DNA of 64,000 nt from Acholoe squamosa (Eukaryota; Annelida; Polychaeta; Phyllodocida; Polynoidae), in the NCBI GenBank assembly GCA_949317995.1, contig OX439035.1, positions 1-64,000 on the forward strand, written 5' to 3'. The notes below the pieces were generated by a model, which saw only the letters and a list, made by a program, of their open reading frames with translations, was not told the origin of the DNA and ran no database searches. Both the position numbers and the translations under genes were made by a program. The number at the start of each line of letters is the position of its first letter. The first letter of the stretch is position 1. Below are positions 1,534 to 54,364 of this stretch, piece by piece.

Positions 1534-1934
1534 AGCGAAACAATGGCACAAGGCTGAACACGCGTGACTCGAGCGGAGCGCAGCATATAGCGGTTTAATA
1601 GCGAAACTTCATTGCTCGGCCTATATTTCTACAAACCAACTACGAGGGAAGGATATCTGATAGTGCCTATGGAATCTATGAACACATTTATTTCCATACC
1701 TTGGATATTTTTGAGTTTGTATGTCCAGTCTTCAAATCATTGAAGGAAAATCCAACATGGCGGCGCCCATAAGCTGTCGTTTGCTACGGTTTGTAAACAT
1801 CATGGATTGATGTCTAAAACCCATTACACTACACAGGAAAGGGGGATTCTTTATTCCTGAGGAGCTGCGAACACTTTTATAATATATTTTCCATATTTGT
1901 AGACTCTTTTTTGCCTACCCTAAGTCCGAAACTT

Positions 1935-3425
1935 ATGTCGCAAAAAACCACTAGAAGTACGAAACTTTCTCCGCATCTAGCTTTACCTAACCCAACCAGA
2001 ATCAAGATGGCGACTTCCGGTAAGACCAAAACTACCGTATTACAACCTGATTATTCTGATTCTGAGGGTGAAGAACTGAAATATTTACCCAAATTGAACT
2101 ACAAAGCTAGTACCAAGGACCTGGTGGATAAGATAAATGAACTGGAGGCTCGCCTAAAATCCCAGGAAACCATAAATCAAGGTACGGTTCGGCTGCTACG
2201 CGGAATGGAACTTCGCTTGTTCGGCCCAAATGGCTTCCCAGCGAATGAGACTATGTCTATACCTAAGATCGAACAAAAAATCACTGAAATTGAGGAATCG
2301 GTCTCAACACATAGTGACAAAATCGAAATCAATGCATCTGAAACGGTGAAAATTCGTAGTTTAACTGATAAGCATGATGATCAGTTCTCACGCATTGATT
2401 TAGATAGGAAGAAAAGGGTATTGATAATTGAAGGCTTAAATGAGGATAAGCCTGCAAGCCTAAGAGAAACCTTGGATCAGCTCCTGAATGACCTCTCACT
2501 TGACTTTAATAATACTGCTGCAGAAGCAATATACCGTAGAGGTAAAAGGAAGACCCTAACTCCACAACAGAAAAAGAATCCACATTTCAAACCACCAAAT
2601 CGACCAATAGTTGTAGTGTTCTCCTCTGCCCAATATAAGCTGAGAATGTTTGGAAATATCAAGAATCTTCAAGGAAACCCTACATGGAAGGGACTACACC
2701 TTGCTGACGACATCACACCTGAGGAGAAGCGAATACAGAAGGACGTAAGGGCCATACAGGCTCTAGCCAGGAATAGAGGAATCGACTGCAATGCTAAGGG
2801 TACAAACCTGGTGATTGAGGGCAAATTATTCCCATACAAAGAAATTAACAATCTTCCGTATGATCTGTCCCTAAAGAACGCCAAGACGGTAGAAACCCCA
2901 GATGGGATAGCTTTCCAAGGAGAACATTCTATATTTTCTAACCTATACAAATGTCCCATCACATTTGAAAACCAACAATACGATTCAGTAGAAAGGGCCT
3001 ATCATGCTAAGAAATGCATAGTTAGTAACCAGGTGAACATTTTGAGAAGGGTACTTGCAGCTAAGACCCCTATGGACAGCATGTTTGCAGCTAAACAATG
3101 CAACATCTCAAATGACTGGTATGACATTGATGAAGAGGTCATGGGCAGATTACTTGAAATAAAATTTGCACAGCCTAACCTACTCCAAGCATTGATTGAC
3201 TCCAAAGGAAAATACCTCTACGAGGCCACCTACCACAACACCTATGGCATCGGTTTCCACCTAGGGCAGAAGGACCAAATAACCATTAATAATGTGGCCC
3301 ACAACCAACACGAATGCTCTAATAAGCTGGGGGAAATGCTTATGAAAATAAGGTATAAGCATACAAACGAAGATCCACTACCAACATCAGAAGAAATTAG
3401 GCTACAAGACGCTAGAAGGAATTAA
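1935..3425 (+). CDS. LINE-1 ORF1: coiled-coil/RRM-like RNA-binding protein fused to a NADAR domain
   Basis: A protein of 496 aa from the first ATG (the frame is open further back to a TTG at 1911). The N-terminal 50 residues are polar and basic. Heptad-rich segments at about 60-150 suggest a coiled coil. Residues about 155-300 resemble the RRM and C-terminal domain of L1-type ORF1p, with RVLIIEGLNE, RPIVVVF and the WKGLHLADDITPEEKRIQKD stretch. Residues about 323-476 are a NADAR/YbiA-like domain: IFSNLY, SVERAYHAKK (E353), NDWYD (W395), LYEATYHNTYGIG (E430) and NKLGEMLMKIR all match the family signature in order. ORF1p proteins coat the element RNA. The bacterial NADAR relatives are N-glycosidases acting on ADP-ribosyl or related ribosyl substrates. 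Activity of this copy is inference. Confidence 0.85.
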   Translation: MSQKTTRSTKLSPHLALPNPTRIKMATSGKTKTTVLQPDYSDSEGEELKYLPKLNYKASTKDLVDKINELEARLKSQETINQGTVRLLRGMELRLFGPNGFPANETMSIPKIEQKITEIEESVSTHSDKIEINASETVKIRSLTDKHDDQFSRIDLDRKKRVLIIEGLNEDKPASLRETLDQLLNDLSLDFNNTAAEAIYRRGKRKTLTPQQKKNPHFKPPNRPIVVVFSSAQYKLRMFGNIKNLQGNPTWKGLHLADDITPEEKRIQKDVRAIQALARNRGIDCNAKGTNLVIEGKLFPYKEINNLPYDLSLKNAKTVETPDGIAFQGEHSIFSNLYKCPITFENQQYDSVERAYHAKKCIVSNQVNILRRVLAAKTPMDSMFAAKQCNISNDWYDIDEEVMGRLLEIKFAQPNLLQALIDSKGKYLYEATYHNTYGIGFHLGQKDQITINNVAHNQHECSNKLGEMLMKIRYKHTNEDPLPTSEEIRLQDARRN

Positions 3426-3747
3426 ATATACCTGAGTCTGCTCTATTACGAATCACATCTACATATATATTATTTAACTATATTTAATATAAACTTGTTT
3501 CCTTCCTTCCCCACATACACAGATTTTACCCGCTGTCATGTTGCTGCTACGTCTCAACACACCTGTATCAACCGATGAAAATGTACTGTACCGGTAGAGG
3601 GTGCGGCATTAAGGCCTATGCCCCTTTTGTGGTTAATACCTTGATAGATATTTATGGAGCCTGGGGGGGCTCTGATTGTAACTGTAAAAATAAAATTTAT
3701 CCAGTAACATTGTACATTGTACTGTTCAACCTAATATTACCTATAAT

Positions 3748-6618
3748 ATGCAACACACATTATTGAATGACTTATCAGGTACCAAGGGCCTACGACTGAT
3801 GCATATGAATGCTCGTAGTTTCAAATGTAACTATGCTAGCATCTGTGCTGAAATCTACCCTGCAAATTTTGAAATTTTTACCTTCTCTGAAACTTGGTTT
3901 AAAAGTGAAGATGACGAATCGAATTATCAATTTTCTGGCTACACACGTTATAGACTAGATAGACAAGTCCTAGATGAAAAAGGTAACATCAAAATTGGTG
4001 GTGGTGTATGTATCTATATCAAACAGAGTTTGAGTCATGACTATGATAAATTCTCCACACTATCCCGCTCAGACTCTAACATTGAACTTCAATGTATAAC
4101 CATAACCAAAGACCATATGAAACCTATCCTACTTTTTAATGTGTACAGACCCCCTGATGGATCTAAAACTGCTTTTATAGATACATTAATTGAGATGGTC
4201 TCTACTATAGATGACAAAGACCAATATGAAATTATTGCCATGGGTGACTTTAACTTCAATGTTACTGAAGATTGTGAGCTAGTCCACGATTTGTTGAACA
4301 AAATGAAGGGTATAGGTTTAAAACAAGAAATTAAGGCTGGTACCAGGAAAAAATCCATATTAGATTTGATATTCACCAACGTAAGAATGAATTATATTTA
4401 CACGGGTGTCTGTAATAACACTATAACTGATCATTTACCAGTGTTCTTGGTAAGAAAGAAATGGAAAGTTAAAACTGAAAAGGTCTATATAACCGGTAGG
4501 TCATACTCCAAATTAGATAATACTACACTATTGAGAGAATTCGATGCCTATGACTGGACTGAATTTAATAATACCAATGATGTTAACTGTGCTTGGTCTC
4601 ATATGGAATTAGCAATAAGGAAAATCCTAGATAAACACTGCCCAGTTCACAAATTTTTGGTTAATAAATATAGAGACCCTTGGATGTCCCAAGAAGTTTA
4701 CGAGACTATACGAGAAAAAAATGTCAAACTCTGGAAAGCAAGACGCTCTGGTAAAGAGGAAGATTGGAAATCTTCAAGGGAAGCACGTAACATAGCTAAT
4801 AAAATCATTAATAAAGCAAGGAAAAATTTCTTCAAGGAACAGCTGGAAGTACATAAGAATGACCATAAGAAATTCTGGAGAACCATTAATAATATTCTAC
4901 CGGGTCACCCTAACCGATCAAATAAAATATCACTAATTGACCATGAAAACAATAACAGACCAATTGAAGATGAAAAAGTTTCTGACTTCATCAACCAATA
5001 TTTTATTAATATAGGTCCCTTGCTTGCCAAAAACTTATTTATCCCATGGAAACCTTACGATGAACATGTGATGAATCAAATTGATAATATTGAAACCAAT
5101 GTACAAGAAGTAGCAAAATTGGTACATGACATAAACACTATCAAATCCTCAGCTATTGAAAATATCTCTACATCTATTCTAAAAACAGTTTTCATACATG
5201 CACCCTCTAAACTAGTCAAAATCTTCAACCTGTCTTTTGCTCAAAATTGTATCCCAGATTCTTGGAAGATATCAAAAGTCACACCTATACCTAAAGCGGG
5301 AGATCAGAAATTAGTAAACAATTATAGACCGATTTCACTACTTCCTTTACCAGGTAAATTAATAGAGAAAATTGTACATAACCGAGTTTATGGATTCTTA
5401 ATAAAAGAAAATATACTTACACCGAAACAAGGTGGATTCAGATCTGGTTTTAGTACTATAGATACATTAGCAAAATTTACTGATGACATTAAAAGAAATT
5501 TAAATGTGGGCAACTCAACAGTGGCTGCTTTTATAGATCTCAAGAAAGCATTTGATACTGTAGACCATTCAGTTCTATTAACCAAAATACATCACTATGG
5601 TATTAGATCGAATACATATCACTGGTTCAAAAATTATTTAGAAAATAGATATCAAACTACCATAGCCAATGGATCACTATCTAAGCAAGCTAAAGTGTTA
5701 TGTGGCGTACCCCAGGGCTCGATTTTGGGTCCGCTATTATTCTTAATCTATGTCAATGATGTTACTAAATGTGTGAAAAATTGCGAGGTTAGACTTTACG
5801 CTGACGATACTGTAATTTATTCTTCTCAAAATGTTTTTGAACATGCAAAAAATTATCTACAAAGTGATCTGGAGGCTTATGAAACCTGGTGTATTCAAAA
5901 TAAATTATCTATAAATGCCTCTAAAACGAAAATTATGTTTTTCTCCTCTAGTACAAGGAGATTAAATACCTTAACTGCCAACATTAAACTCAACGAGCAG
6001 CTATTACAAGTGGTACCTAGCTATAAGTACCTAGGTGTTATACTGGACTCACTACTCCATTACAACTTACATTTAAGCAACCAAGTTAAAACTATAGCCT
6101 ATAAGACATACAAATTATGTCTATTAAGAAAATATCTAGATGTCAAATTAGCTATACAAATATATAAAGCAACTATACTACCCTATATGGAATATGCTGA
6201 TATTGTTTTCATGTCTACTTACGACAAATACCTGGACCCACTTCAATATGCTCAAAACAGGTGTTTAAAAATTTGTTTAAAAGTCCCACATTTAACCAAT
6301 ACAAAATATGTACACAATGCCTCTGGAGTGAATATGCTGGTTGATAGAAGAGATGCTCATTTATTAAACTATATGTACAACAGATCGAAATGTGATGTGT
6401 ATAGAGATAAAAGAAATCTAACTACTCGTCTACATGACGCCCCCACTGTTAAATGTATTACCCCAAATTGCCTTTCATATGCTAGAAGTGTAGAATTCCA
6501 TGGTGCTATTGCTTGGAACTCCTTGCCAAAGGATCGAAGAAACACTCTAGAATTTACTAAATTTAAAAATGATACAATTATCCTAATGAAAACCCTATTG
6601 CCCTATGACGAAGATTAA
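3748..6618 (+). CDS. LINE-1 ORF2: APE-type endonuclease and reverse transcriptase
   Basis: A 956-aa ORF from a good ATG. Residues 1-235 are an exonuclease-endonuclease-phosphatase domain: FSETWF (catalytic Glu), IGGGVCIYIK, NVYRPPDG, MGDFNFN (Asp/Asn pair), a LDLIFTN strand, and TDHLPV with the catalytic Asp-His. The RT occupies about 480-780: NNYRPISLLPLPGKLIEKI, QGGFRSGFSTIDTLAKF, FIDLKKAFDTVDH (motif A, near 593-605), GVPQGSILGPLLF (motif B) and YADD (684-687). A thumb and C-terminal region follow with YKYLGVILD. No zinc knuckle is visible at the end. Such proteins nick target DNA and copy the element RNA in place. All key residues are present, so this copy may be active. Confidence 0.95.
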   Translation: MQHTLLNDLSGTKGLRLMHMNARSFKCNYASICAEIYPANFEIFTFSETWFKSEDDESNYQFSGYTRYRLDRQVLDEKGNIKIGGGVCIYIKQSLSHDYDKFSTLSRSDSNIELQCITITKDHMKPILLFNVYRPPDGSKTAFIDTLIEMVSTIDDKDQYEIIAMGDFNFNVTEDCELVHDLLNKMKGIGLKQEIKAGTRKKSILDLIFTNVRMNYIYTGVCNNTITDHLPVFLVRKKWKVKTEKVYITGRSYSKLDNTTLLREFDAYDWTEFNNTNDVNCAWSHMELAIRKILDKHCPVHKFLVNKYRDPWMSQEVYETIREKNVKLWKARRSGKEEDWKSSREARNIANKIINKARKNFFKEQLEVHKNDHKKFWRTINNILPGHPNRSNKISLIDHENNNRPIEDEKVSDFINQYFINIGPLLAKNLFIPWKPYDEHVMNQIDNIETNVQEVAKLVHDINTIKSSAIENISTSILKTVFIHAPSKLVKIFNLSFAQNCIPDSWKISKVTPIPKAGDQKLVNNYRPISLLPLPGKLIEKIVHNRVYGFLIKENILTPKQGGFRSGFSTIDTLAKFTDDIKRNLNVGNSTVAAFIDLKKAFDTVDHSVLLTKIHHYGIRSNTYHWFKNYLENRYQTTIANGSLSKQAKVLCGVPQGSILGPLLFLIYVNDVTKCVKNCEVRLYADDTVIYSSQNVFEHAKNYLQSDLEAYETWCIQNKLSINASKTKIMFFSSSTRRLNTLTANIKLNEQLLQVVPSYKYLGVILDSLLHYNLHLSNQVKTIAYKTYKLCLLRKYLDVKLAIQIYKATILPYMEYADIVFMSTYDKYLDPLQYAQNRCLKICLKVPHLTNTKYVHNASGVNMLVDRRDAHLLNYMYNRSKCDVYRDKRNLTTRLHDAPTVKCITPNCLSYARSVEFHGAIAWNSLPKDRRNTLEFTKFKNDTIILMKTLLPYDED

Positions 6619-7029
6619 CTAATCAATATTGTGAGTTGTGTGTACGTTAATTGCTCAATTGCTCAATGAAAATATTACATTGTTACAGCTAATTTACGAT
6701 TTACCCCCCCCATGTATGTGTTCTCCATTTCATTAGTATTTATATAACAAGTGTCATAAGTTTCTAATATTATTTATAAGTCAGGTAGGACCAGAAGTAT
6801 CAACCTAAACACTTCTGTGGGGATGAGGTCCTCTGCCTTCTTTTTTGTCACTATTTGGAACCTAGTATATAATATTATTGACTTCACCTGTTTCTTGTCA
6901 ATCAACTCGAACAGTTTGTCTTCTGTACTTGGAAATACTTGTGATTATCAATACTATTGCTTCTATTGCCAATAATGTATGACGAAATGAAATTCTGACA
7001 AATAAAGTGAATTCAAAACAAAAAAAAAA
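6619..7029 (+). other. LINE-1 3' UTR, polyadenylation signal and A-tail
   Basis: Non-coding tail of LINE-1. AATAAA lies at 7001-7006 and a run of A at 7020-7029 ends the element. The last 40 bases resemble the 3' end of LINE-3 at about 48405-48449, where CAAATAAAGT and an A-run recur. Confidence 0.7.
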
Positions 7030-7143
7030 TGCCCAAGATATCAAGTTTCTGTCTGTATCTCGCCTTGTCAGCAGCGTCCTCTATCCTCTCCATGTAATCC
7101 CACGACATGTCAGCGTAAATTTCCAGAAAAAATACTTCTATGG
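7030..7143 (-). other. Exon-like open segment abutting the LINE-1 tail
   Basis: Read on the minus strand, a CGTTAG acceptor-like site is followed by about 45 open codons that look protein-like (for example FLEIYADMSWDYMERIEDAA and ARYRQKLDILGI) and that stop where the LINE-1 A-tail begins. This could be a host exon interrupted by LINE-1, or part of another element. I do not recognise the family. The remaining 140 bp up to LINE-2 include, on plus, AAAATGGCGG, a good start context followed by about 28 open codons. Confidence 0.3.
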
Positions 7144-7284: not shown

Positions 7285-8533
7285 GAAGAATGACCCCAAG
7301 ATATTTATAACTAGGTACAACTTGTAACATCAAATTGTTCATGGTGATATTAGCTGACAAAGTGTTAAGTTTCATGGTACATGATGAGAAAATCATTATT
7401 TTTGTTTTAGCAATATTAACCGACAGCTTTTTTTTTTTGCTCACACCAGGTATTATACATTTCTAAATCCTCCTGCAAACACATTTTAGCAGTTTCAAAA
7501 TTATTATGAGAAGTATAAATCACAGTATCATCAGCATATAATTGAATTTTACAGTTTTTTATACATTTAATTACATCATTAACATACACCAGAAAGAGTA
7601 GAGGTCCCAATATTGAACCTTGAGGAACACCACATACCACTCTGCACATTCTAGAAGAAATACCATTTGCCTTAACAATTTGTTTCCTATCGACCAGATA
7701 ATCTTTAAACCAATGATATGTGTCAGATCTTATACCATAATTATGAAGTTTAATAAGGAGTACTGAATGGTCTACAGTATCAAAAGCCTTCCTCAAATCT
7801 ATGAAAGCGGCAACAGTGGAATTACCAACATTAAGGTCTCTTTTAATATCATCAGTGAATTTAGCTAGTGTATCCACAGTGCTGAAGCCAGGGCGAAAAC
7901 CACCTTGAAAATTTGTTAAAATATTTTCATCTTTTAAGAATCCATATAATCTATTGTGAGCAATTTTTTCGATTAGTTTACAGGGTAAAGGAATTAATGA
8001 GATAGGCCTATAATTATTTACCATCTTTAAATTACCAGATTTCGGTATAGGAGTAACTTTTGAGATCTTCCATTTAGCAGGTACCGAGGCTGTTGTAAAA
8101 GATAAATTAAAAATTTTGACTAGTTTATCAGGGTCGTGAGAGAAAAGTTTTTTTAGAATTTTCGATGATATCTGATCAATGGCTGAGGATTTAAGTGGGT
8201 AATGTCATGGACTAGTTCAATAACTTCTTGCGCATTGGTTTGAAAATTTTTTATGGTGTTAACAGTAGGTGGATCATAACTTTTCCATGGCGTGTGCATG
8301 TTAGTAGCTAATTTGGGTCCAATGTTGGAAAAGTATTCATTAATAAAGTCAGAGGTTTCATTTCTAGGAATAGTCTTATTATCATTTTCATGATCCACTA
8401 AATTTATATCACAAGCTCTGTTCTTATGACCAGGGATTAATTTGTTTATAATACGCCAAAATTTACGATGATCATTTTTATGGGATTCAGCTTGTTCTTG
8501 AGACATGTTAGAACTTGGAGTACAACCTGACAT
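7285..8533 (-). pseudogene. LINE-2 ORF2 remnant (reverse transcriptase)
   Basis: Three overlapping frames carry the RT core: a pre-RT segment (8533-8153, KNDHRKFWRIINKLIPGH), the fingers/palm (8024-7416, with NNYRPISLIPLPCKLIEKI, FIDLRKAFDTVDH, GVPQGSILGPLLF and YADD) and the post-YADD part (7444-7285, SVNIAKTKIMIF and SYKYLGVIL). Frameshifts separate them, one of them in a run of A/T near 7430. The order and motifs match LINE-1 ORF2 closely. EN and the C-terminal third are absent, so it cannot give an active protein. Confidence 0.9.
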
Positions 8534-8896
8534 TTCAACTCTCCTTCATATCCCCTCATTACAAAGTTGAAAAAATAATTAAAGTTGGGGTCAATAAATG
8601 TTAGTTGGTACAATATAGTAATTGCTAATTTAGGTACTATAACACGGGTATAGGCCTTATTGCCACCCATGGTATCGATATAGGATTGAGTCTTCAACTA
8701 GTTTCAGGGGGCATTGGGAATCCCAGGGAAAATTTTCCAATTAAATCAAGTCAAATATGGTATATATAGTAGTATTCTGATGGAACATAGATTAATTCGA
8801 TGTTTAATGTATAGAATAGTAAGTACCGGTACACTATAAATTGTTTTTATATATGTTTGTGTTCATTGAGTCCAGTAATATGTAGCGATATCCGTT

Positions 8897-9719
8897 TTAG
8901 GCTTGGGGCTGATTAAGGTCCTGGTTTCTTGCCATGTCGAGTCGAACTTCTTCTGCAGTTTTGAGAGGGTCTTCGCCTGTGTGTAACCTATGTACTTCTA
9001 CCAGAATTTCTCCCAGCTTGTTAGCACAGTTAGACTTTGCCACATTGGTTATTACAATATCCTCCTTCTGGCCTAGATGGTACTCACAGCCATATGTTTT
9101 ATTTTGTGTGGCCTCATACATGTATTTTCCTTTGAAGGATGTCAATTTGTTCCTGAGGAGAGGATTATTGAATTTAATTTCAACAAGTTTGTACATGGTA
9201 GCTTCTTCCTTGTCAAACCAATCATTTGTTTTTTTACAGGTCTTGGCAGCAAACATTGCTTCAGTAGGAGTACTAGCTGCCATAACTTTTCGCAGTATGT
9301 GGGGTTGGTTGGATTTAACACACATCTCCGCACAGTAAGCCCTTTCCACTGAGTCAAACATCTAGCCATGGTATTGTATTTGGCAGGGATAGAGATTCGA
9401 GAAAACTGAATAAGGCCCTTGAAAAGCTACACCATCAGGGGTAACAATTGTCATTGTCCAGGGATAGTCCATTTGGTAGGGTGCCAAGCTCCCCATGGCC
9501 ATAGGATACACCATCAACAATAATAGTATTCCCTCTTACGGTTGCATTAATCTGTTTGCTCCTGGCCAGGGCCTGAATAGATCTTAGATCTTTCTGCATT
9601 TGTTTTTCTTTAGGAGACATGTCGTCTGAAAGATGTACCCCTTTCCAAGTAGGATTGTTTCTCAGCTTGCTGATGTTGGCAAAGATCAGAGATTTGTAGT
9701 GTGTAGCAGTAAACACTAT
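8897..9719 (-). pseudogene. LINE-2 ORF1 remnant with NADAR domain
   Basis: The minus-strand frame at 9716-9435 matches the RRM/CTD part of LINE-1 ORF1 (NNPTWKGVHLSDDMSPKEKQ, RSIQALARSKQI). After a frameshift near 9440 the NADAR domain continues to 8897, with one in-frame TAG at about 9364 just before the MFDSVERAYCAE segment. NADAR signatures retained are SVERAY, NDWFD, KFNNPLL, YMYEATQNKTYG and NKLGEILVEV. The region between about 9430 and 9365 also encodes the FSNLY part when read in the NADAR frame. The C-terminal tail (EDPLKTAEEVRLDMARN) parallels that of LINE-1, so the two copies are one family. Confidence 0.85.
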
Positions 9720-10497
9720 GATTACAGACGATGGGACTTTCTACTCACATGAAAATCTTGAATCGATCCCTCGGCAATTTTTCCCGGGAACCAAGAAAAA
9801 AGGCAGGAAAATAAATCTAGATGTGGAAGACGGTGAACAGACACGCCCACAAATCGAGAACACCGAAGGGCTTCCCTGCAAAAATGATGACGTGGGTAGG
9901 GGAATCCCAACAGCGGAACCCGAGCGTGTTCGGGCCACCGCCTGTGGTTTAGTGTTTAATGGTGAGACAGCCTCAATGTCAAATTTCTACTACTCGCCAT
10001 TTACTCTGGAAGGGAAAGATTATGTGTCTTTCAAACAGTATTTTCAATCAGAGAAATGTAAGAGCTTAGGAGCAGAGAAAGAGATGGAAGCCATCATGAG
10101 AACAAGCAAAAGGGTTAGAATGAAAGCCATAGGTGACTCAATTGACGTGCCCTCGGGGTGTGACTGGTTGAAAAAAAGTGACAATGTGCTGTTAGTGGGA
10201 ATCAGACAGAAATACCAGCACAACACGAAACCAAGGCTCGAGGTACTCAACTCATATCCCACCCACCTCATTGAAAGTACCCTAGATCCGTACTATGGGG
10301 GGGGCTTCAATAATAAACACCATATCTACGACGATAAAAACAGGTACGACGCTCATCCCAGAAAAGGCCTCAATAAAATGGGGTTCTTATTGATGCAAGT
10401 AAGAGATGAACTGGTAAATAAATATAGTGTGAGATCGAACGCACCGGTAGACCAGAACGGAAGTCAGGCGAATGGTGAAGAAGGCGGCGGAGAGTAA
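9718..10497 (+). CDS. Free-standing NADAR-domain protein
   Basis: A 259-aa ORF. Residues 1-75 are polar and low in structure; residues about 80-245 form a NADAR domain with SNFYYSPFTLEGKDY, SFKQYFQ, a CDWLKKSDNVLL stretch containing the conserved Trp, LIESTLDPYYGGGF, and GLNKMGFLLMQVRDEL. It resembles the YbiA family better at the C-terminal end (GLNKMG..LM..R) than the LINE-1 version does, but the usual S-x-E-x-x-F/Y-Q segment reads SFKQYFQ, so the conserved Glu is Lys here. The start lies at the truncated edge of LINE-2, so the true N-terminus may be lost. It precedes the SGNH ORF and the LINE-5 EN-RT ORF on the same strand and may be the first ORF of that element, or an independent gene. 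Confidence 0.75.
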   Translation: MITDDGTFYSHENLESIPRQFFPGTKKKGRKINLDVEDGEQTRPQIENTEGLPCKNDDVGRGIPTAEPERVRATACGLVFNGETASMSNFYYSPFTLEGKDYVSFKQYFQSEKCKSLGAEKEMEAIMRTSKRVRMKAIGDSIDVPSGCDWLKKSDNVLLVGIRQKYQHNTKPRLEVLNSYPTHLIESTLDPYYGGGFNNKHHIYDDKNRYDAHPRKGLNKMGFLLMQVRDELVNKYSVRSNAPVDQNGSQANGEEGGGE

Positions 10498-10564
10498 AGC
10501 TAGTAAACAAAGCTGGAAATAGCGTATGTTAGGGACAGGTAGCGTTGCCCTTGACTAAATCGTG

Positions 10565-11436
10565 ATGGAGGAAGTTAACAATAACACAAATGGAGAAATA
10601 ATGTAAGTATTGTAGGCATTTGGTTATTCAATGAGCAATAACACAAGAATACATGCACTCTGAGTGACAATAGAGGACACGGACATAGGGCAGATAAGTA
10701 TCAGGCCCGTATTTTTCTCACTCTCCCCAAATTATAATGCATCAATGTACTTTTATCTATCTTATGTAATAGGACAAGACCTGACGTGAGGATAATAGGG
10801 GACGTTTGTCTAGAAGCCCTAGGAAGCAAGCTGAACGAAGTTCTACCGGTTGAAGTAGCAATCGCCTTCTTTGATAACAATCAGCTAAGTGACTGTCAAA
10901 CATGGCTTAGCAACACTGATGATATGAATAGAATACCTAGCGACCTACTAGTGATAACATGTACTATTTGGGACTTAGTTGAAAGAAAAGTCAATGGCAG
11001 TATCATCAGTAAATGCATAGATATGGATACATCTATCGTCCAGGCTAATAAGTACATGCAGAGTCTTCAATCAATTTATGATAGTGTTGCCGAAGCCTCA
11101 CCAAACACGAAGATAATGTTTTGTTCGGTTATGCCTATCCACCTGAACACATACAATCAATCGTTCAGTCAATTTGCTAACACTGATATTTATGTCCAAG
11201 ATTCATTAGACATGACAGTCATTAAAATCAATAGCAGAATACAGTGGATGAATAAGCAAAACCACATGGCGACCCCAAGGTACGACCGTAACATTTGCCA
11301 CTACCAGACCCGCACTAAGAAGTGGAAAGTCTACCACAACATGCTCAGCGCTGACGGGGTCACTGCAGGTGAGATACTAGGTCAACAAATAGCATCCAAG
11401 ATGACAGCCGCCATCAGTCTGAACTCCAGCACATGA
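10565..11436 (+). CDS. SGNH/GDSL-hydrolase-like ORF1 with an apparent 170-bp intron
   Basis: The main open frame is 10773-11436. An in-phase 5' piece starts with ATG at 10565 and reaches a GTAAGT donor at 10603; the acceptor TAATAG ends at 10772 after a T-rich tract. Splicing joins AT to G and restores Met, then continues into the main frame. The protein (about 233 aa) has the order of an SGNH esterase: VRIIGDV (block I), LLVITCTIWDL (block III position), TKIMFCSVMP, and NMLSADGVTAG (block V). Block I Ser is Val and block V His is Thr, so the catalytic residues seem lost. Esterase-like ORF1 domains are known in CR1-type LINEs; placing it upstream of the LINE-5 ORF2 fits that. Confidence 0.6.
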
Positions 11437-11611
11437 GGAAGTCAAGGGCCTAACTTAGTTTCAGATGTAGAGGTAGAATTAGATTCACATGCAGAAATTC
11501 TGTATTAGCTATTATTGGATACTAGCTAAATTGTGGATATTCATGACATCATGTCATCGCTGATATATAATGGGCACTATGATACCTATGTGTAATGCAA
11601 TGTTTTTTTTT

Positions 11612-12020
11612 GGACTGGTTAAACAGCCGCACACACTGTTACCTAAATTATGTATCATGCATCCATGTACTGAATCTTTAGCTACCAGGACTGGTTAAAA
11701 CAGCCTTGGGATTATGACTTCTAGTGAAACTATTACCAGAATGTTGGTAAACATGTACTAAGATTAAATACCTAACTGGTCTGGTGAAACAGCCCACTAT
11801 CAATGTATAGCAACTGTAACCTTTTCTGTTATAAATGGAACCTGGTCTGGTTAATCAGCCCACATGATTATTAGCTACTTTTGTATATATTTAATACTTA
11901 TTTGTCTGTATACTTGGTGTGTGTTATGATTTAATCTGGACTGGTCAATCAGCCTAATAACCTCCTCTTCCTGACGGGATTTATTCAGTGCCTAACACAT
12001 TTTGGACTGGTTAATCAGCC
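11612..12020 (+). repeat. Six-copy 17-bp dyad motif GGACTGGTTAATCAGCC
   Basis: Variants of GG(A/T)CTGGTTAATCAGCC occur at 11612-11628, 11688-11705, 11778-11794, 11844-11860, 11938-11954 and 12004-12020, all in the same orientation, 64-95 bp apart. The core CTGGTT-A-A-CAG is an imperfect palindrome. The spacers between copies do not resemble one another, so this is not a plain tandem array. The cluster lies between the SGNH ORF and the LINE-5 EN-RT ORF, in a spacer of about 900 bp with no other coding content. Confidence 0.9.
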
Positions 12021-12332
12021 TAATTTTCATATCTAAGGTGCTAAAATACCTTATATGGCACCATGTAATTGGCTATTATTAATATGGTACTAGTGATTCA
12101 CATTGTATGACTTAGTTTAACTTTGTTGTCGTAATTTAGGATTAGGTAAGACTTTATAACACTGGGAGTTAGTATTAGCATTATAGTAATCTATACAAGA
12201 ATAGAATTTAGATACCCAGTGAATGATAGGATTAGCAATTGTTCTAGCTAGATAAGCTCTGTGTGATTATCCTATCGCTCTACCCACGCTAAATGAAACA
12301 GGAAAAATGAATATCGAGATGTATGTCAGTGG

Positions 12333-15125
12333 ATGAACCTCCAAATGGCTAGTGTCCCGCGAGGCCTAAAAATAGTATATATGAATACTAGGAGCATGAA
12401 GGACAAATTGACTGATATGAGACAGTGCTTTCAAAATGATGTAGACTTTTTCTGTATTAGTGAGTCCTGGCTGAACAACACTATAGATGATGATAATGTT
12501 AAATGGATAGGCAATAGACTATTTAGGATTGATAGACTGAGAGTACACAAAAATTGAAGAAGATATTGAGATACTTACATTATGTATTGAGAAGCCCATG
12601 CGGCGTCCTAAGTTACTGTGTAACATATACAGGCCACCTAATACTAATCATGTCAATTTCTTTAAAGTACTAGAACGGCTACTTGATGAAGTAGATCTCT
12701 CTAGGGTGGATGTGTGGATTGGTGGGGATTTTAATATCAACTATGCCACGCCAAATGAAACCAAGTGTCAAGCACTCATTGATTTCACTAGGGACTATGG
12801 ATTAAAAATGCTAATAGATAGTATCACCCGGCCGAGCGAAAAAGATAACCGAGGTATGGTAATTGATAACATACTGACTAATGCTGAACATGTTGTATTT
12901 CACCAGCCACTACCGGTATTCATTAGTGACCACTACCCTGTACTAGCTGTGCAAAAGAAGTCACAAGAGACATATGTAGATAGCACATTTACAGGTAGAA
13001 GTTATAGATTTTATTGTAGAGAGGATCTAGAGGAAGCTCTCTTGTACCATGATTGGTCTGATTTCTACAAGGAAATGGATCCATCCAAATTATGGGATGA
13101 ACTCATTGGTATCACACAATCATACTTGGATGAAACCTGTCCAATAAAAACTTTAGAAGTAAAGTCACATGAGGTGGAGTGGATAACTCCTGAAATTATA
13201 GAAGCAATAAATGACAGGAGAGTGGCCACTATTGAATTCCTAAGAAAAGGAGGTCCCATACTATTTAATAGGGCCAAGAATTTTAGATCAAGGGTAAGAA
13301 TTATGATTGATGAGTCTAAACAGTATCAAATTGACCAAGCCTTTCAAAATCACAAAGATGGACATAGAGAGTTTTTGAGAAAAATTTCCGAGTTAATTTC
13401 ACCCAAAGATATGGGATCTAGGGCTGAATTTATACATCACACGACCGGTGCTCAAGTAGATGCTGACGAGGTTTCAAATTACTTCAATGAATTCTTTGCC
13501 AATATAGGTTTAGTAATGGCACAAAACATGAATTTTGATGAGAATAGCACCCTCTTCAAAGAGTATGAGGTTACACATCATTGTGAAACTTTAGTTTTTG
13601 ATTTTAAGATTATTGAAAAGCTGATAGACAATATCAATATATATATAAGTCTAGCGGCATAAATGGTATAAATGCCAAAGTTTTGAGGGACACCTTGAGT
13701 GCCACAATACCACAACTACTACACATCTTTAAGAGTTCATGTACTTATGGCCTATTTCCGGACCAATGGGCAACCGGTACTGTTATTCCAATTCCCAAAA
13801 ATGGCGATCTCACTTCTATAAGTAATTGAAGACCAATAAATTTGTTACCCATACCAGGTCGAATAATGGAAAAATGTATACACTCCCACATAATGGATCA
13901 CCTTGAGAGGAATAGATTGTTAAGTGACTGTCAATACGGCTTTCGTCCGGGTCTTGGGACCAATGATGCCTTGTTTGATTTTACTAGCTACATCTATAAA
14001 GAATTAGATCACAATAATATGTAAGTGCCTGTTTTGTAGATGGCTCTAAGGCCTTTGATTCCGTGCATCATTCTGTACTTATTAAAAAATGTGAAAAGAT
14101 GAATTTAGACAGAAATTGTATAAGCTGGTTAAAGTCATACCTAGGTAACAGAAAACAAGCAACTTTACTTAATGGTAAGCGCTCAGAAGAGAATGTAGTG
14201 AAGTATGGCGTACCACAGGGGAGTTCGTTGGGCCCCCTCCTTTTTCTAATATTTATTAACGACTTCCCTGATGTAATTGCCCATTCTAAAGTTTATATGG
14301 ACGCGGACGACATTGTGTTACTAGCAAGTCATGAAAATATGAACCAATCTGCTGTACTTCTTCAGAATGATGTTAACAGTACCTACAATTGGTGTAATAA
14401 CAACTGCATCACTATAAATAAGAAAAAAAAAAAACAGGTTTTAAGAATATCTAGATGTAAATTACCAGTAGATACCCCCCCCCTTGTCAATAACCATAGA
14501 TGGATTTGCTTTAGAAATGGTAGACAGCTATAAATATCTAGGTGCTCTTATTGACAGTAATGTAAACTTTAAAGCTAATACAAATAAGTTAATTCAAACT
14601 TTGAATCACAAACTTTATTTGTTATCACGTATACACAAATACTTGAACCAAGAAAAGTCTTTACTTTTTTACAAAACCATGATTGTACCTTACATTGACT
14701 ATGCAAGTTTTTTACATGAATGTACCACCCAAAATTTATGTGAAAAAGTGCAACGTATGAAAAATAGAGGGTTACGAGTATGTCGTTATGGCAATCAGTA
14801 TGAGAGATGCTCAGCTACTGAGTTACATGAGATGTTCCATATTGATACCTTAGACCAGCGCAGATTAAAACAACTCCTGACTCATATGTATAAAACATCA
14901 AAGTACACAGGTATGATTAAACCACCTGAGAATACGAGGACGCGTTCTGACAACAAAGTGAAATTTAAAAGTGAAGTTCTTAAATTTGAATCAACCAGGA
15001 AAAGTCCATTGGTCCAGGGAATTTGGGAATGGGATGGTTTGAAGGCTGAACAACAGAAATCTGAAAAGAAAAGTCAGTTCAAGAGTTCACTAAAGAATAT
15101 ACAACATAGAAAACATTTACGGTAG
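12333..15125 (+). pseudogene. LINE-5 ORF2: endonuclease-reverse transcriptase, broken
   Basis: The EN starts at 12333 (YMNTRSMKDKL, FFCISESWLNN) and resumes in another frame at about 12598 (CNIYRPPNTN, WIGGDFNINYA, ISDHYPVLAV); the intervening G-rich strand of EN is deleted. The RT follows across frames: an upstream piece to 13662, IPIPKNGDL near 13790, a TGA in place of the Trp codon of the N-W-R-P motif near 13828, LPIPGRIMEKCI and GFRPGLGTNDALF (13842-14024), GVPQGSSLGPLLF (14063-14533) and YKYLGALID (14484-15125). The YADD box reads MDADD. A C-run near 14476-14485 coincides with one frameshift. At least four lesions make it a pseudogene. Confidence 0.9.
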
Positions 15126-27649: not shown

Positions 27650-28669
27650 ATGGCAAATTGCTCAACCCGGAGACCTGATGTATGCCAGAGTACTGTCCCT
27701 GATAAACCGTCTGATGAATCCGAAATGATTACACCCAGGAAGGAGGGATCCGAGATTGATCTCCTCGCCCCTCCTATGGCCGGAGACTCCAACAGAAGGG
27801 AGAACACTGAGTCAATGAGAAATGAGAGTACTCGCGTTGGAGAAGAGGAAGGGTGGATAGAGGTATTCACACGTGTATGTGCGGCACACCTTCCCCCGAA
27901 CCATCCATGTCTGGAGCATCTGAAGGACCATGGATTGGATCTCGGCATTTCGGAAGATTTTGATAGATTTACCGGAAACCCCTCTCCTCTGAGAGGCAGA
28001 AGATGGTATGTATCTGTTACGACCCAAGGCAGGACTGGGGAATTTTTGGTTGACACTGGGGCTTGTCACTCTATGATCTCCAATAAATTTTACAGCCTCT
28101 TGCCGGACAAGAGTGAGAACCTCATAAAGAGGGTAAACGCTTGTACGGCCGATGGGACCCGTATGCAGGTTCTTGGTAGAACATTTATGAAGGCATCAAT
28201 TGGTGGGAAAGAGTTTGTACTCTCACCCACTATAGCCAATATGAACGATGACGGGATACTTGGACTAGATTTTGCAAGTCTATTTGAGGCCGAGCTGAAT
28301 CCGTGTAGTGGAATGCTAAGGATCCAGAAGCCCTATGATATCCAAGTGAAATGTGTATTAAGACAGATAAGTACAATAGCCAGCATAGTGGATACAGTAA
28401 AGATACCCCCGGGTGTCTCCTGTGATGTACTGTGTACTTCAGATTGGAAACTGAAAGACCAGGAGGGTGTATTTGAACCAGATGTGGTTCAATTATCCAG
28501 CATTGGGCTAGAATCAGTAGACACTCTGGTAGGAAATCCTTTCTGGAATGTACTGCCAGTGATGAATAGAGGCGATAAGACCATCTATCTACAGAAGGGA
28601 TCCAGACTTGGGTCCATGACGTTGGTAAATGAGGTACTAGAGGACATCCGGAAACCCGAACATTGTTAG
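27650..28669 (+). CDS. Gypsy-1 aspartic protease
   Basis: 339 codons from ATG 27650, 15 bp after the gag stop. About 120 leader residues precede the retropepsin core: EFLVDTGACHSMIS with the catalytic DTG, and DDGILGLDF as the second conserved strand. The TAG at 28667-28669 overlaps the start of the RT frame (-1 relative), so in the live element protease and RT were probably joined by -1 frameshifting or were one frame before mutation. The protease would cut Gag and Pol. Confidence 0.85.
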   Translation: MANCSTRRPDVCQSTVPDKPSDESEMITPRKEGSEIDLLAPPMAGDSNRRENTESMRNESTRVGEEEGWIEVFTRVCAAHLPPNHPCLEHLKDHGLDLGISEDFDRFTGNPSPLRGRRWYVSVTTQGRTGEFLVDTGACHSMISNKFYSLLPDKSENLIKRVNACTADGTRMQVLGRTFMKASIGGKEFVLSPTIANMNDDGILGLDFASLFEAELNPCSGMLRIQKPYDIQVKCVLRQISTIASIVDTVKIPPGVSCDVLCTSDWKLKDQEGVFEPDVVQLSSIGLESVDTLVGNPFWNVLPVMNRGDKTIYLQKGSRLGSMTLVNEVLEDIRKPEHC

Positions 28670-29203
28670 GGAAAGAAAAGATGAATATGGAGTTGGATAA
28701 ACTAAAAGAGGAATCCTCTCTGGAAAACAGCTATCAGAAGATGGAAGTTCGGAATATGATACGGAAATATGAAGACGCCTTTGGCTACTCTGGTGGCCCT
28801 TTGGGTCGGAATGATAAGGTACTACACCACATCAATACCGGAGAGGCGGAGCCCTTTAAGATTCTGTATCGCCGATTGCCACTTAAGAAAAAGATTATTT
28901 GCGAAAACGAAATATTGGATCGGCTGGAAAAGGGAGTGATCGTGCCTAGTACCAGTCCATGGTCTAGTCCTGTTGTCATGACTACTAAGAAGGATGGAAG
29001 CATCCGCTTTTGTGTGGATTATAGGAAACTAAATGGGCTAACTAAGAAAAACTCATACCCGCCACCAAGGGTTGATGAAACTTTAGATGCCCTGGGAGGG
29101 AATAATTGGTTCTGTACCCTGGATCTACAATCCGGGTACTGGCAGATAGGAATGGAGCCCAAGGACATAGAGAAAACAGTGTTTTCCAGTCATTTAGGCC
29201 TAT
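28663..29203 (+). pseudogene. Gypsy-1 pol, segment A (start of reverse transcriptase)
   Basis: Contains the tether and first RT blocks: STSPWSSPVVMTTKKDGSIR, FCVDYRKLNGLTKKNSYPPP, RVDETLDALGG and WFCTLDLQSGYWQIGM (motif A with the first catalytic Asp). The frame runs without a break into the inserted Penelope-like element at 29204. It resumes at 31727 in the same frame because the insertion adds a multiple of three bases. Confidence 0.95.
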
Positions 29204-31257: not shown

Positions 31258-31725
31258 GTTTCACCAAAACACACCGTATGTACCAGTGTTGTACATACAA
31301 AGGCTGACAATGTAACTCAGAAGGGTCGAAACCGCGTGAATATGCTTCAGGTCCAGTGAGACCTCCAGAAGGGGTGAATGAATTGAAGATTCATAAGCCC
31401 ATACGAACCTCAATGCCCCACCAGTGAAATATGTGGAAAAACAGACCCCTGTTCTACAACAGGGGGTGAGCAGGGAGGCATACACACACCCAGTAGAGGG
31501 GTGGACTCACCTGACTAGGGCAACAGTGAGATGGGGGGGGGGGGTGGTCACAGGCACCACACTCCACACAGAGCACTAGCCCACCCACATATACACAGTA
31601 CAGTGACACACCAAACAACACTGGTGGGGGAAGAGTGAGACTGACCAGTGAAGGCAGAGGCCACCGGTCGATCGGTCATTCACGCGGTAGTGGTAGGAGG
31701 AGGCACAAGCCACGTTTACACACCT
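31258..31725 (+). other. PLE 3' UTR
   Basis: Non-coding, with an 11-base G-run near 31535-31546 and GGGGG/CCCC-rich flanks. It ends at the right copy of the target duplication. Confidence 0.6.
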
Positions 31726-31726
31726 A

Positions 31727-32442
31727 GTCATTTAGGCCTATTCAAATATACGGTTATGCCCTTTGGGTTATGTAATGCACCCGCTACATTTGAAGCCATG
31801 ATGGAAACTCTGCTGAGTGACCTATTGTGGAAGAAATGCCTGGTGTATCTGGACGACGTAATTGTCTTCGGAAAGATATTCCGGGAATGTTTGAATAATC
31901 TGCAAGAAGTTATCAAGAGGATAGTATCCAATGGATTACGTCTGAAACCGAAGAAATGTGAATTATTTAAGAAATCAATTACTTACCTAGGTAGGATTAT
32001 ATCCACAGATTGGGTTAAAGCTGACCCGGAAAAAGTGGAGAGTGTTTGGGATTGGGAAAGACCTGCAACTGCTAAACAGGTGCGATCTTTCCTGGGGTTC
32101 TGTAGCTATTACAGACACTTCATTCCGGGATACTCTCGAGTGAGTTTTCCTATGCAGAGTATTGCTCACTGGACACCTGGGAGAGATAGGGAACCATTTC
32201 CATGGGGGAATGATCAGGAGGAGTCTTTTAGGAAACTAAAAGCTTTATTTACGGATACTCCTTCAGATCACTTTATATTGGATACGGATGCTAGCAATGA
32301 TAGCATTGGAGCCCCACTATCCCAGGTCCAGGACGGTGTGGAAGTCCCGATTGCATTTGCTAGGAATACTCTGAATAAGGCCCAAAGGAATTATTGCACC
32401 ACTGAGAGGGAACTCTTGGCTGTGGTGGTGTATACTAAGAAG
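31727..32442 (+). pseudogene. Gypsy-1 pol, segment B (RT palm to RNase H)
   Basis: Resumes with FKYTVMPFGLCNAPATFEAM (motif B), KKCLVYLDDVIVFGK (catalytic YLDD), LRLKPKKCELFKK, FLGFCSYYRHFIPGYS (connection), and the RNase H start HFILDTDASNDSIGAPLSQV and NYCTTERELLAVV. It breaks off after TAT ACT AAG AAG at 32442, where LINE-3 begins. Segment C restarts at the residues that should follow (FKHFLWG). Confidence 0.95.
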
Positions 32443-32739
32443 TACACAAGATGGCCGCCGTCGAATAGAACGGGCGAGGTGGAGCTCTGACGAAATTTAT
32501 TGAATTACTATACTCAGACAGGAGCTACATGTCTCAAAATGGACAGTAATCTGTATGAACAGACAGGGAATACACAGGAATAGACAGGAATGCTGAAATA
32601 TCTCTTACAAGTGAGTGTGCATCGAGGAAAACAAAAGCACAGCGCACGGGAGTCCCACGGTAGCGAAGTCAGCCAAACCACGGAACCTGTGAGTCATATC
32701 TGCCGCTACGCAACCTTACAAGAGTAAACATCAGCGATA

Positions 32740-34484
32740 ATGGGGAAACCACGCAGAAGGGCCCGTATTAAAAATTTGTCTAACAAAGCTACAGTAAAAG
32801 ACCTTATTGAAGCTGTAAATAACCTACAGGAAAGGCTAATAGAACTTGAAAGTGATCATGATTCAACCACTGTAAACACTGTTTTGCTCCAAGAAGACTA
32901 TGAAACTCTTGAAAAGCGAGTAGCTGAAAATGAAAAAAATGCTAGAACTACGAGTGACATTCTTAAGGCCCTCACAGATAGACTAGATATTGCTCAGCCT
33001 ATGGCCAATGAGGCTATCCAAAAGGTTGACAACATGAAAGAAAGAGTTGATTGTATGTCTACTTCGCTAAATACTGCAAATAGACTTACCAAATCACTTC
33101 TGAAAACTACTCAAAAATTCGAGGAAGATGACAGGAAAAAAACTCTACTTATGGAAGGGTTCCCAGAAAATCACAAAGAAGACCTTCGCAAAGTCTGTGA
33201 CACATTATTTGAAGATTTAGGGTTCAAATATGGCAATGAAAGAGTAGACTCCATATATAGATTGGGGAAGTATGATCCTACACAAACCAGGCCGAGAACT
33301 ATAGTCTTCAAATTGGCACATCGAGGCATTAAAGCAGATGTATATAGGAAAATCTCAAATTTGAAAGATTTACCTGCTTGGAAAGGTGTGTCATTGATGG
33401 ACGAGCTCACAAAAACTGAAACAAAACAGTACAATGATCTCAGGGCTCTCTTCTTTCTAGCTAAAAGGAAAGGGATAACTGATGTCAAACTTCGTCAAAG
33501 AGTGCTGATTATTGAAAAAAAAATCATACTCACACCATGATATCACTGCCCTACCATATGGCTCAAATTTGCTAGAAGCCTACACGATCAAAACTCAAGA
33601 TGGCATAGCCTTCAAAGGACCCCACCACATCCTGAGTAACTTGTATACATGTGACATCACATACAAAGGTCAAACATATAGTTCAGTTGAACAGGCAATA
33701 CAGCATACCAAGGCCCTAAGTGTTGATGACAAAAAAGCAGCTAGTGATATTCTACACACTGATGATCCCTTCGAGATGATGGAAATAGGAAAACAGATCA
33801 AGCCAACTACAGAATGGTCTAAAAATGCTACTGGACTCATTTATGAATGCCTTCAGTCAAAGTTTAAAGTGTAGCAAATATCTTCAGGAGATCATAGGAA
33901 ACCTGTATGAATGCACCTATCACCCTATCTATGGGGTAGGTAGGCACATGGGAAATGTTGCTAGCCTATGCGAAAATGACGTTCAAGGTGGTAATATTCT
34001 AGGGAAACTTCTGGCTAAAGTTAGGGCAGAAAAACTTGCACAACCTACAAAGCCCGTGACAACATCAACGCCAACACCAACTACTGGGTCTCTGCCATTG
34101 CCTACTCCAACACCAGCTCCAGCACCAGCTCCAACACCAGCTCCAACACTTGATTCTGAAAAACTTCCAATACCACCAACACCCTGTGGAAAAACTCAAG
34201 ACCTGCCACCATTACCAGCTATGGCAACTGGCACCCGAGAGCTACTACCAACACAGGATGTACATCCTAAAATCTATCCACCACCAATTTCTCCAGAAGA
34301 CAAGAAGAAAAAATCTGAAAAAAAATCAGAAACTGACCAATTGCATACAAAAAAGTGTGAAAAAAACTCAACTCACGACGAGTCTGATAATGATAATCTG
34401 AATGAAGACCACTCGGTAGTAGATATTGACAGTGAGGACTCAAAAGCTGATCCCAACGACTCCATCACTTCCACTAATTTGTAG
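32740..34484 (+). pseudogene. LINE-3 ORF1: coiled coil, RRM/CTD-like and NADAR, two frameshifts
   Basis: From ATG 32740 the first frame holds a basic N-terminus, a long coiled coil (residues about 20-140) and an ORF1p-like RRM/CTD (KKTLLMEGFPENHKEDL, RPRTIVFKLAH, WKGVSLMDELTKTE). A 9-A run at 33515-33523 marks a frameshift; the NADAR domain follows (GIAFKGPHHILSNLY, SSVEQAIQHTKAL). A second frameshift near 33865 leads to NLYECTYHPIYGVGRHMG and GNILGKLLAKVRAE. The C-terminus, unlike LINE-1, adds a Thr/Pro/Ala repeat (PTPAPAPAPTPAP) and an acidic end. The Glu of S-V-E is kept. Both lesions are simple indels, so the ancestral protein is easy to recognise. Confidence 0.85.
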
Positions 34485-34787
34485 AATCACAGAATCACAA
34501 ACTGTGTAAAAATGTATATAAAATTCTTGATTTGATTGTTGATCTAAAAATATATTGCTATTGATTTTCCATGTTCCAAATAATAATACTTTTTTATTTT
34601 AGTAACATGTCTGAATCTTGGAGACTCGAGCTAAATGTACATAGAGCATAGATACCACCTAATGCTATCTTGTACTGCTAATCAACAATTGGTATGGACT
34701 GTCATAAAGACAAAGGTCCACTACCTATGAGAAAAATAGACTGTCATAGAATGGTATTAACGAACGGTTGTATTAGGGAGACTAAGG

Positions 34788-36803
34788 GTGGTCTTACATG
34801 TTGTTGTTATAAGAATACCTGTACTGTATAATCACATACCATCTCTTATAAATACTAATGGTCAATGTATTTTACCTCTTAATGCCCAAAGCATTAGAAA
34901 TAAGATTGTTGACCTACGCATTGAATTACAAAATCAAGGTATAGATTTTCTACTTTTCTCTGAGACTTGGTTGACCGATACTGATAAAAGCGACAACTAT
35001 ATTTTTAATAATTACAACCTCTATAGATTTGATAGAGTACGCGATAAAGCGGGAGGAGGTTTATGTGCATATATTAAAGAAGGTATAACATGTTCCAGCC
35101 AAAAATTTTCAAATTTTAATGTAAGCAATATCGATGTGGAAATACAATGGCTAAATATATCGAGAGAGCACTCCAAATCAATGGTGATAGCTAATATTTA
35201 TAGACCACCGGAAGGGAACAAGTACAATTTTGTGAATATATTAAAAGACACATTGACAAAAATTGAAAATCTTGAAAACTGTGAAGTATTTTTGATTGGA
35301 GACTTTAACATCAACATGTTTGAAAATACTCTGTCAAAAGATTACTTGCTTTCCACTTTACAAGATTCTGGACTACTGCAATTAATTAATCAATCCACAA
35401 AAAATAAGGGACAAATGTCATGTATTGATCTTATTTTTACAAACTCTACTATAGTTGAAAAATCTGGAGTAGCCACTTTAAATCAAAGCGATCACTTACC
35501 TGTGTATGTCAGCCTCAAGAGACCAAGTATACAGAGAAAACAAAGAACTTTTAGTGGACGGTCATACAAATTATTCGATGAAAATACTTTTAAACAGAAC
35601 TTTATCGAAATGTCTTGGGAAAATTTTGATGCCTGCGATGACATTGAATCCTGCTGGCAGATTTTTGAAGATAATATTAACAGTATTCTCAATGTTCTAT
35701 GCCCAATTAGGAATTTCAATATTAAATTCAAGGAAGAACCATGGCTAACACCAGAACTTATTTCAGAAATCATTGAGAAAAATAATGCACTGAGAAAAGC
35801 TAAGCGAACAAATAATATTTTGGATTGGCATAATGCCAAAATCTTGAAAAACAATTGCAGTACAAATTTAAAAAGGGCAAAACAAGCTTTTATTGTTTCC
35901 GAACTCAATAAAAATGTTAAAGATGCAAGAAAATTCTGGGCAGCCATGAAAAACCTTATACCGGGTAAAAGTAAAAGTTCTTCCATTGACCTTATTGATG
36001 ATCAAGGTAACGGTATTAAAGAAGATAAGACAGCTAATTTTATAAATGAGTTTTTTACAAACATAGGTCCAAACTTAGCTAACAAAATAAATACCCCATG
36101 GAATTTTACAGGTCAGGTTTGTGACAAAGTGATGAATGATTTTATTATTACTGATGAAAATGTACTAAATGCTTTGAATACGATAAATAAGAACAAATCC
36201 TCTGTCTTAGAAAATATATCATCTAATGTTTTCATATTAGCGGTGAAAACCCAGATAACACGCTTCACCCGATTGTTGAATTTAATAACTAACAATTGTT
36301 ATATACCCAAATCATGGAAGGCAGCCAAGGTCACTCCGTTACCTAAATCAGGTGACTTATCAGATGTATCGAATTACAGACCTATAAGTCAACTTCCAAT
36401 ACCGGGTAAGGTCCTTGAAAGGATTCTACACACCCAATTAGAAAACCACCTGGAAACAAACAAAATACTTACAAAAATTTAAGGAGGATATAGGAAAAAA
36501 AGATCCACAGTTGATACTATTAGTACTTTGACAAATGATATATTATGGAATAGAAACGAAGGTCATGTGACCCTGGCTGCTTTCATAGATACAAAAAAGG
36601 CTTTCGATTGCGTTGATCACTTTATTTTGAAAAAAAAACTTGAAAAATATGGTATTAAAGGAAAAAATCTATTATTAATAAGTGAATACCTGAGCGATAG
36701 AACACAAAAAGTCTTAGCAAATGGGTACGTATCAACTGGTTTAACTATAACATGTGGTGTACCACAGGGTAGTATTTTAGGCCCTCTTCTTTTTTTAATA
36801 TAT
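34788..36803 (+). pseudogene. LINE-3 ORF2, 5' part (endonuclease and RT fingers/palm)
   Basis: The frame opens at a GTG near 34788; the true start is not clear. EN motifs: LPLNAQSIRNK, LLFSETWLTD, GGGLCAYIKEG, NIYRPPEGN, LIGDFNINM, SDHLPV. RT motifs: SNYRPISQLPIPGKVLERI, then an in-frame TAA at 36480-36482 in place of a Gln-type codon, GGYRKKRSTVDTISTLTN, FIDTKKAFDCVDH and GVPQGSILGPLLFLIY. It is cut at 36803 by gypsy-2 just before the YADD region, which continues in the same frame at 46815. Confidence 0.9.
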
Positions 36804-37184
36804 TGTGGCGGAGACGGAGGGGCCGTTGGCGGAGCCGAAACCATCCTGGTGTGGGGGCGGCGAGGCCAGCGGTCCTGAAGTAACGCGGTTACGTCGGCAA
36901 TAGTAGTCGGCGGAGGAGATCCTCCGACGCTGGCCTGCCGTAAAGCAGGCCGGGGTCGGAGTATCTGCCTATGTATAAATAAGGGAGTTGTTACTCCGAT
37001 TAGTCAGTTCCGAGTTGCAGACAGAGAGGAGCAGAACTCTAAAAGGCTTATCTCCGGATTAATATATACACGATATAAGACTTAGATGGTGTGGCGAGGA
37101 CTGCCAGGAAATAAAAGACACTGAAGTCAAGCTGTCGGAGTTGTGTAATTCTTTATTAACCATAGAGTCGGAAAACGCTATACA
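36804..37184 (+). repeat. Gypsy-2 5' LTR
   Basis: 381 bp, starting TGTGGCGGAG and ending TACA. A TATA-like TATGTATAAATAAGG lies near 36969-36983 and a polyadenylation-type AAATAAAAG near 37110. A primer-binding region TTGGTGACAGCGG follows at once (37185). Confidence 0.95.
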
Positions 37185-46810: not shown

Positions 46811-46814
46811 ATAT

Positions 46815-54309: not shown

Positions 54310-54329
54310 TCTGGAACAGTGTAAGCGGA

Positions 54330-54360: not shown

Positions 54361-54364
54361 AAAC

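Follow-up and report, generated by a model that had tools for sequence, protein, structure and literature searches.

The window analysed here comprises the first 64,000 nucleotides of contig C1, which is 127 Mb long, of the polynoid annelid Acholoe squamosa; no telomere array was seen in it (1-64000), TTAGGG and CCCTAA occurring only as scattered motifs. Near its beginning lies a LINE retrotransposon, LINE A (1534..7030, + strand), that ends in an AATAAA signal followed by a short A run and carries two open reading frames on the same strand. ORF1 (1935..3425, 496 aa counted from the first in-frame ATG) encodes a coiled coil, an RRM and a CTD, i.e. the layout of Type II (LINE-1-like) ORF1 proteins, in its front half; the RRM-CTD portion (approximately 2412..2885) was located by its matches to LINE-1 ORF1p. 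It is followed in the same frame by a NADAR domain (2922..3356) matching PF08719. ORF2 (3748..6618, 956 aa) encodes an endonuclease and a reverse transcriptase (RT). In a Pfam profile search the RT matched RVT_1 (1.3e-40), and the endonuclease gave matches to Exo_endo_phos_2 (6e-06, narrowly short of the cut-off) and to a second endonuclease model (0.0064) that were both below the cut-offs.

LINE A is repeated elsewhere in the genome. Comparison with a copy on another contig (C6) showed that similarity begins at 1534, the 5' end common to both, and stops at about 7025, inside the A run, with unlike flanks beyond the common stretch. Identity was 99.6% over 1534-4912 and 99.8% over 6614-7025, the two stretches compared. 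No clear target-site duplication was found at either copy. A search of the genome with the ORF1 DNA returned 297 first-look candidates. Scoring 40 of them gave ten full-length rows at 91-100%, among them that of the window itself, then two shorter ones at 95-96% and 28 at 84-86%. The LINE A family is young, and an older group is its sister. An endonuclease and RT in ORF2, dispersed copies, a 3' A run and common ends (compared in two copies) are the features of an APE-type LINE, and support the claim of the first-pass annotation that the fusion is part of a LINE. Only the RT region of ORF2 could be aligned to L1 ORF2p (E=1.1e-12). From this weak L1 similarity and the ORF2 length, LINE A may belong on the CR1/L2 side of the LINE tree (Jockey superfamily).

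The fusion of NADAR to the ORF1 protein, first called from motifs read by eye, was confirmed by the profile search (60.5 bits, against a curated family cut-off of 35.1) and by matches to the YbiA fold, which together rule out a chance motif match; replicase polyproteins were also among the fold matches. The suggestion that no such LINE had been described has to be corrected, as a NADAR in a LINE ORF1 is already in print: in the Pacific oyster Crassostrea gigas several families of Tx1 LINEs, like LINE A, have NADAR-like domains inside ORF1, an observation drawn from Repbase for which the role was considered unclear and processing of RNA intermediates was suggested (PMC12477816). The same source describes Gypsy elements of Ectocarpus with NADAR in Pol, likewise retroelements that acquired the domain. 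NADAR is absent from all four ORF1 types that have been defined, type V being "unclassified", and neither "NADAR" nor "YbiA" occurs in the retrieved part of the paper that describes them (PMC4120745); the same holds for NADAR in the retrieved part of a survey of bivalve LINEs (PMC10294476). Among the matches listed in our literature search, PMC12477816 alone joins NADAR to retroelements, and none dealt with how many copies LINE NADARs have, with selection on them or their active-site state, or with ORF2 types beyond Tx1. Outside retroelements, nidoviruses and other RNA viruses carry NADAR in polyproteins together with the polymerase, again a parasite that has joined the domain to its replication proteins (PMC9503650).

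Three further NADAR-bearing LINEs are present in the window. LINE A' (7286..9740, - strand) is a decayed relative, with NADAR at 8897-9361 and 9365-9535 and an RT that is 72% identical to that of LINE A over 259 aa. LINE B (9700..15125, + strand) is also decayed and represents a separate family, with a NADAR ORF (9700-10497), a 232-aa ORF and a frameshifted endonuclease/RT whose pieces are 40-62% identical to those of another element of the genome (L040); its NADAR retrieved no matches as a protein-search query. LINE C (32728..36878, + strand) is frameshifted, with an N-terminal part and RRM at 32728-33537, a NADAR split over two frames (33509-33871 and 33789-34481) and an endonuclease/RT at 34761-36878.

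The rest of the genome gave a similar picture. Searching it with PF08719 gave 3224 first-look candidates, and all 150 that were scored exceeded the cut-off. We took 7-kb stretches around the scored places ranked 1, 4, 7 and so on to 58 (20 places), and at 18 of them an RT lay downstream of the NADAR on the same strand; RRM-CTD was detected at 14. Of the other two, L047 had an RT only on the opposite strand, and L031, the top-scoring match of the 150, was a lone NADAR ORF with no RT in its stretch and is probably a host gene. The associated ORF2 proteins were of several kinds, and the sampled places include at least types T, K, B and Q. Type T (L048, ORF2 of 1262 aa) is L1/Tx1-like and, unlike LINE A, matches human LINE-1 ORF2p far beyond the RT (E=3.2e-104 over 6-888); the weaker match of LINE A may also set it apart from the oyster Tx1 elements. 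Types K (L035, L032, L044) and B (L040) have ORF2 proteins 30-32% identical to that of LINE A, in open frames of 781-965 aa, some of them ended by the limit of the 7-kb stretch, and type Q (L039, 1167 aa) is 25% identical to it over 440 aa. LINEs that carry NADAR are numerous in this genome and fall into several ORF2 types, LINE A being one example. Proteins from other genomes (P0002, P0003, P0005, P0006 and others) aligned with LINE A across RRM-CTD and NADAR within a single ORF. A scan for viral contigs confirmed none, and AF2, given a T-family ORF1 as a single sequence, produced a poor model (pLDDT 41) that was left unused.

Some other features of these regions are worth recording. A GDSL/SGNH-like hydrolase region seems to accompany several of the NADAR-bearing families: it gave a weak match in L035 (2383-3552; PF13472, E=0.0025) and a still weaker one in the C-terminal part of an ORF of L039 (759-3029; PF03629, E=0.072), both below the cut-offs, and was recognised by eye only in the window ORF at 10738-11436. 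Two more LINE RT pieces (52796-54772, - strand, and 46794-47699, + strand) have no significant NADAR profile match nearby. An RVT_1 ORF (28633-31083), which on inspection by eye resembles GIY-YIG at its C-terminus (cf. Penelope-like elements), appears to sit within a Gypsy pol, of which an RT/RNase H piece lies at 31645-32490. A Gypsy-type pol ORF of 1277 stop-free amino acids with protease, RT, RNase H and integrase occupies 38363-42196.

How the NADAR has been maintained was assessed in 18 copies of ORF1, i.e. those of the window and C6 and 16 fetched from the 38 other scored rows. The choice was based on DNA similarity across ORF1 in full and not on NADAR score, although copies lacking NADAR would rank lower in a search whose query includes it. 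NADAR was fused in the same way in all 18, which lie on many contigs, and 17 of them were free of internal stops, a proportion biased upwards given that nearly all the fetched rows were of full length. Leaving out the broken copy (L076), dN/dS of the NADAR was 0.06 between the two subfamilies (72 pairs, mean dS 0.94) and 0.06 and 0.05 inside them (36 and 28 pairs, the pairs not being independent). For the same three sets of pairs the values were 0.05, 0.07 and 0.09 in RRM-CTD, 0.12, 0.12 and 0.10 in the N-terminus with the coiled coil and 0.10, 0.21 and 0.16 in the short tail. Codon bootstrapping of three single pairs gave 0.054 (0.026-0.090), 0.085 (0.049-0.144) and 0.068 (0.024-0.145) for the NADAR, so that the upper limit stayed below 0.15 in each. 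The domain is kept by strong purifying selection, and for that reason it probably helps LINE A to copy itself; we read the values to mean that NADAR and the RNA-binding half are of roughly equal importance for the spread of the element. The possibility that a host NADAR exon, a neutral passenger or a mis-assembly merely lies beside an ordinary LINE has practically nothing left in its favour: it is ruled out by the repetition of the fusion on many contigs and by a dN/dS near 0.06, and the equal layout of the proteins from other genomes speaks against it as well.

The structure of the stand-alone NADAR of Phytophthora nicotianae (8bau) provides a framework for reading the active site: coordination of the distal ribose falls to E43 and E125, that of the pyrophosphate to K50, R79, W89, R93, W133 and, via water, D130 (PMC11543638). 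The latter contacts are features of one complex and do not define the family. In the NADAR of E. coli C7 the equivalents of E43, K50 and E125 are all required in cells; in vitro the E125 equivalent matters, as does that of K50 (where K-to-R is still active), and for the E43 equivalent E88A had a minor effect and E88Q was inactive, both failing in cells (PMC11543638). Given the minor effect of E88A in vitro, conservation at the E43 equivalent does not settle the matter by itself. Of the 49 unique rows with NADAR that were collected, 39 came from LINEs (the matches of LINE C and L003, under 100 profile positions, were excluded). Residues were counted in 22 of these 39, leaving out LINE A' and all but one row each of types T (11 rows) and Q (7 rows), and in 7 of the 10 others (host, plasmid and phage), leaving out L054, L057 and P0013.

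The E125 equivalent is E in 22/22 LINE rows and that of E43 in 21/22, the exception being the decayed LINE B of the window, which has Lys. At K50 we found K in 13, R in 6 and another residue in 3; W89 is W in 20/22, and D130 is kept in 19/22, the other 3 having H. R79, in contrast, is R in 0/22 LINE rows against 6/7 of the host, plasmid and phage rows, W133 is W in 5/22 against 7/7 and R93 is R in 5/22 against 3/7. The LINE versions differ from stand-alone enzymes such as 8bau and E. coli YbiA (2b3w) by the absence of R79 and, mostly, of W133. LINE A itself has the catalytic residues as E361, K368 and E438 and retains W89 as W403, lacks R79 and W133 and has His at D130; E361, K368, W403 and E438 are identical in 17/17 copies (E361 and E438 in the 504-aa numbering). 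LINE NADARs have retained the catalytic glutamates in an ADP-ribose pocket that is partly altered in a shared manner, and with the changes at R79, W133 and D130 their ligand binding may differ.

Two other roles can be weighed against this pattern. The YbiA fold might serve as a structural or RNA-binding extension, used in ORF1p assembly or RNA contact with no ADP-ribose chemistry. The position of NADAR directly after the CTD across differing ORF2 types is what such an extension would predict, and K104, N170 and G173 (8bau numbering), which to our knowledge are not catalytic, are also kept in 22/22 LINE rows; an invariant E125 and a nearly invariant E43 in domains that differ at most other positions make this role quite improbable. 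Alternatively, the target might be no mark on nucleic acid but a soluble signal of the ADP-ribose type, or some other ribosyl molecule used in the immunity or metabolism of the host, which NADAR would destroy. YbiA works on riboflavin intermediates, viral NADARs have been proposed to target small ADP-ribose derivatives (PMC11543638, PMC9503650), and the altered R79 and W133 would fit a different ligand. An RNA-coating fusion partner is, however, an odd location for such an enzyme, and without taking that as decisive we consider this role rather unlikely.

The origin of the LINE NADARs was addressed with three trees. In the one with 35 rows, the L1/Tx1-like type T joined the NADARs of bacteria, phages and the host (89/97); type K also fell on that side, weakly (78/85). 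When P0013 and L057, both flagged as long, and the unflagged L054 were left out (32 rows), all 25 LINE rows lay on one side of a branch against the 7 others (97/81), five of which were included for their similarity to the host gene, the remaining two being host genes; the 23 LINE rows other than T were likewise separated (99/97). With 41 rows, including 18 non-LINE ones (nine fetched by likeness to LINE domains), T lay among the non-LINE rows (96/93), the remaining 22 LINE rows, K included, came together (82/88) and a single origin of LINE NADARs was not rejected (p-AU 0.113). These topologies suggest that NADAR was captured twice, or else once with LINEs exchanging their ORF1s, a process proposed before (PMC4120745). 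Two lone NADAR ORFs on other contigs, L001 (C17) and L002 (C14), score highest for the family among the 150 places scored in the genome (2.6e-51 and 7.6e-47) and adjoin a Bacillus velezensis plasmid NADAR in the 41-row tree (98/84), by old inheritance or transfer.

What may the domain do for the element? The first-pass annotation had proposed an ADP-ribose eraser that protects element RNA or nicked DNA, which is plausible. The strong selection on NADAR and the retained glutamates and K/R of the active site speak for it; the loss of R79 and, mostly, of W133, together with the His at D130 of LINE A, speaks against it. LINE-1 ORF1p coats its RNA. By analogy, trimers of the LINE A protein would coat their RNA through RRM-CTD and so hold many copies of NADAR on the ribonucleoprotein, where the domain would hydrolyse the bond between ADP-ribose and guanine in element RNA, cDNA or nicked target DNA, undoing marks of host ADP-ribosyltransferases that would otherwise block reverse transcription or integration. 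We give this in cis removal of ADP-ribose from guanine a probability of about one half. Known NADARs take ADP-ribose off guanine in DNA (PMC11543638, PMC11125620), and among the hydrolase families tested they alone reversed guanosine-base ADP-ribosylation of RNA (PMC11833690).

A related role would be to bind the mark rather than to remove it, tethering the ribonucleoprotein to ADP-ribosylated guanine or to ADP-ribosylated chromatin at nicks, where PARPs gather, and thereby aiding target-primed reverse transcription. Retrotransposition of LINE-1 drops when PARP1 and PARP2, which act at its integration nicks, are absent (reviewed in PMC8535693), and the altered pyrophosphate-side residues of LINE NADARs would fit. 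Retention of the catalytic glutamates points the other way, though ribose contacts could also serve binding, and the NADARs tested act on guanine bases and are inactive on phosphate-end ADP-ribose (PMC11833690); on balance we regard tethering as unlikely. For enzymatic removal of the mark, a possible writer of the matching linkage is suggested by the N2-guanine DNA ADP-ribosylating activity of six edible clams, from one of which, Meretrix lamarckii, CARP-1 was cloned (PMC11209040); as a counterpart to the LINE NADARs described here it is only a lead.

The roles of NADARs in eukaryotes have been termed unclear (PMC11125620). A LINE domain evolving at a dN/dS of about 0.06 offers a retrotransposition system in which ADP-ribose removal in mobile elements can be probed, and hints that hosts may resist retrotransposons by ADP-ribosylating guanine; NADAR also emerges as a domain common to LINEs with unlike ORF2s. 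More broadly, and tentatively, several LINE lineages of one genome may have acquired or traded an ADP-ribose eraser against a host guanine ADP-ribosylation that restrains retrotransposons, a possibility to which we would give clearly less than even odds. If true, it would pair a host defence that marks nucleic acids (as CARP-1 does with DNA) with a counter-enzyme borne by retroelements.
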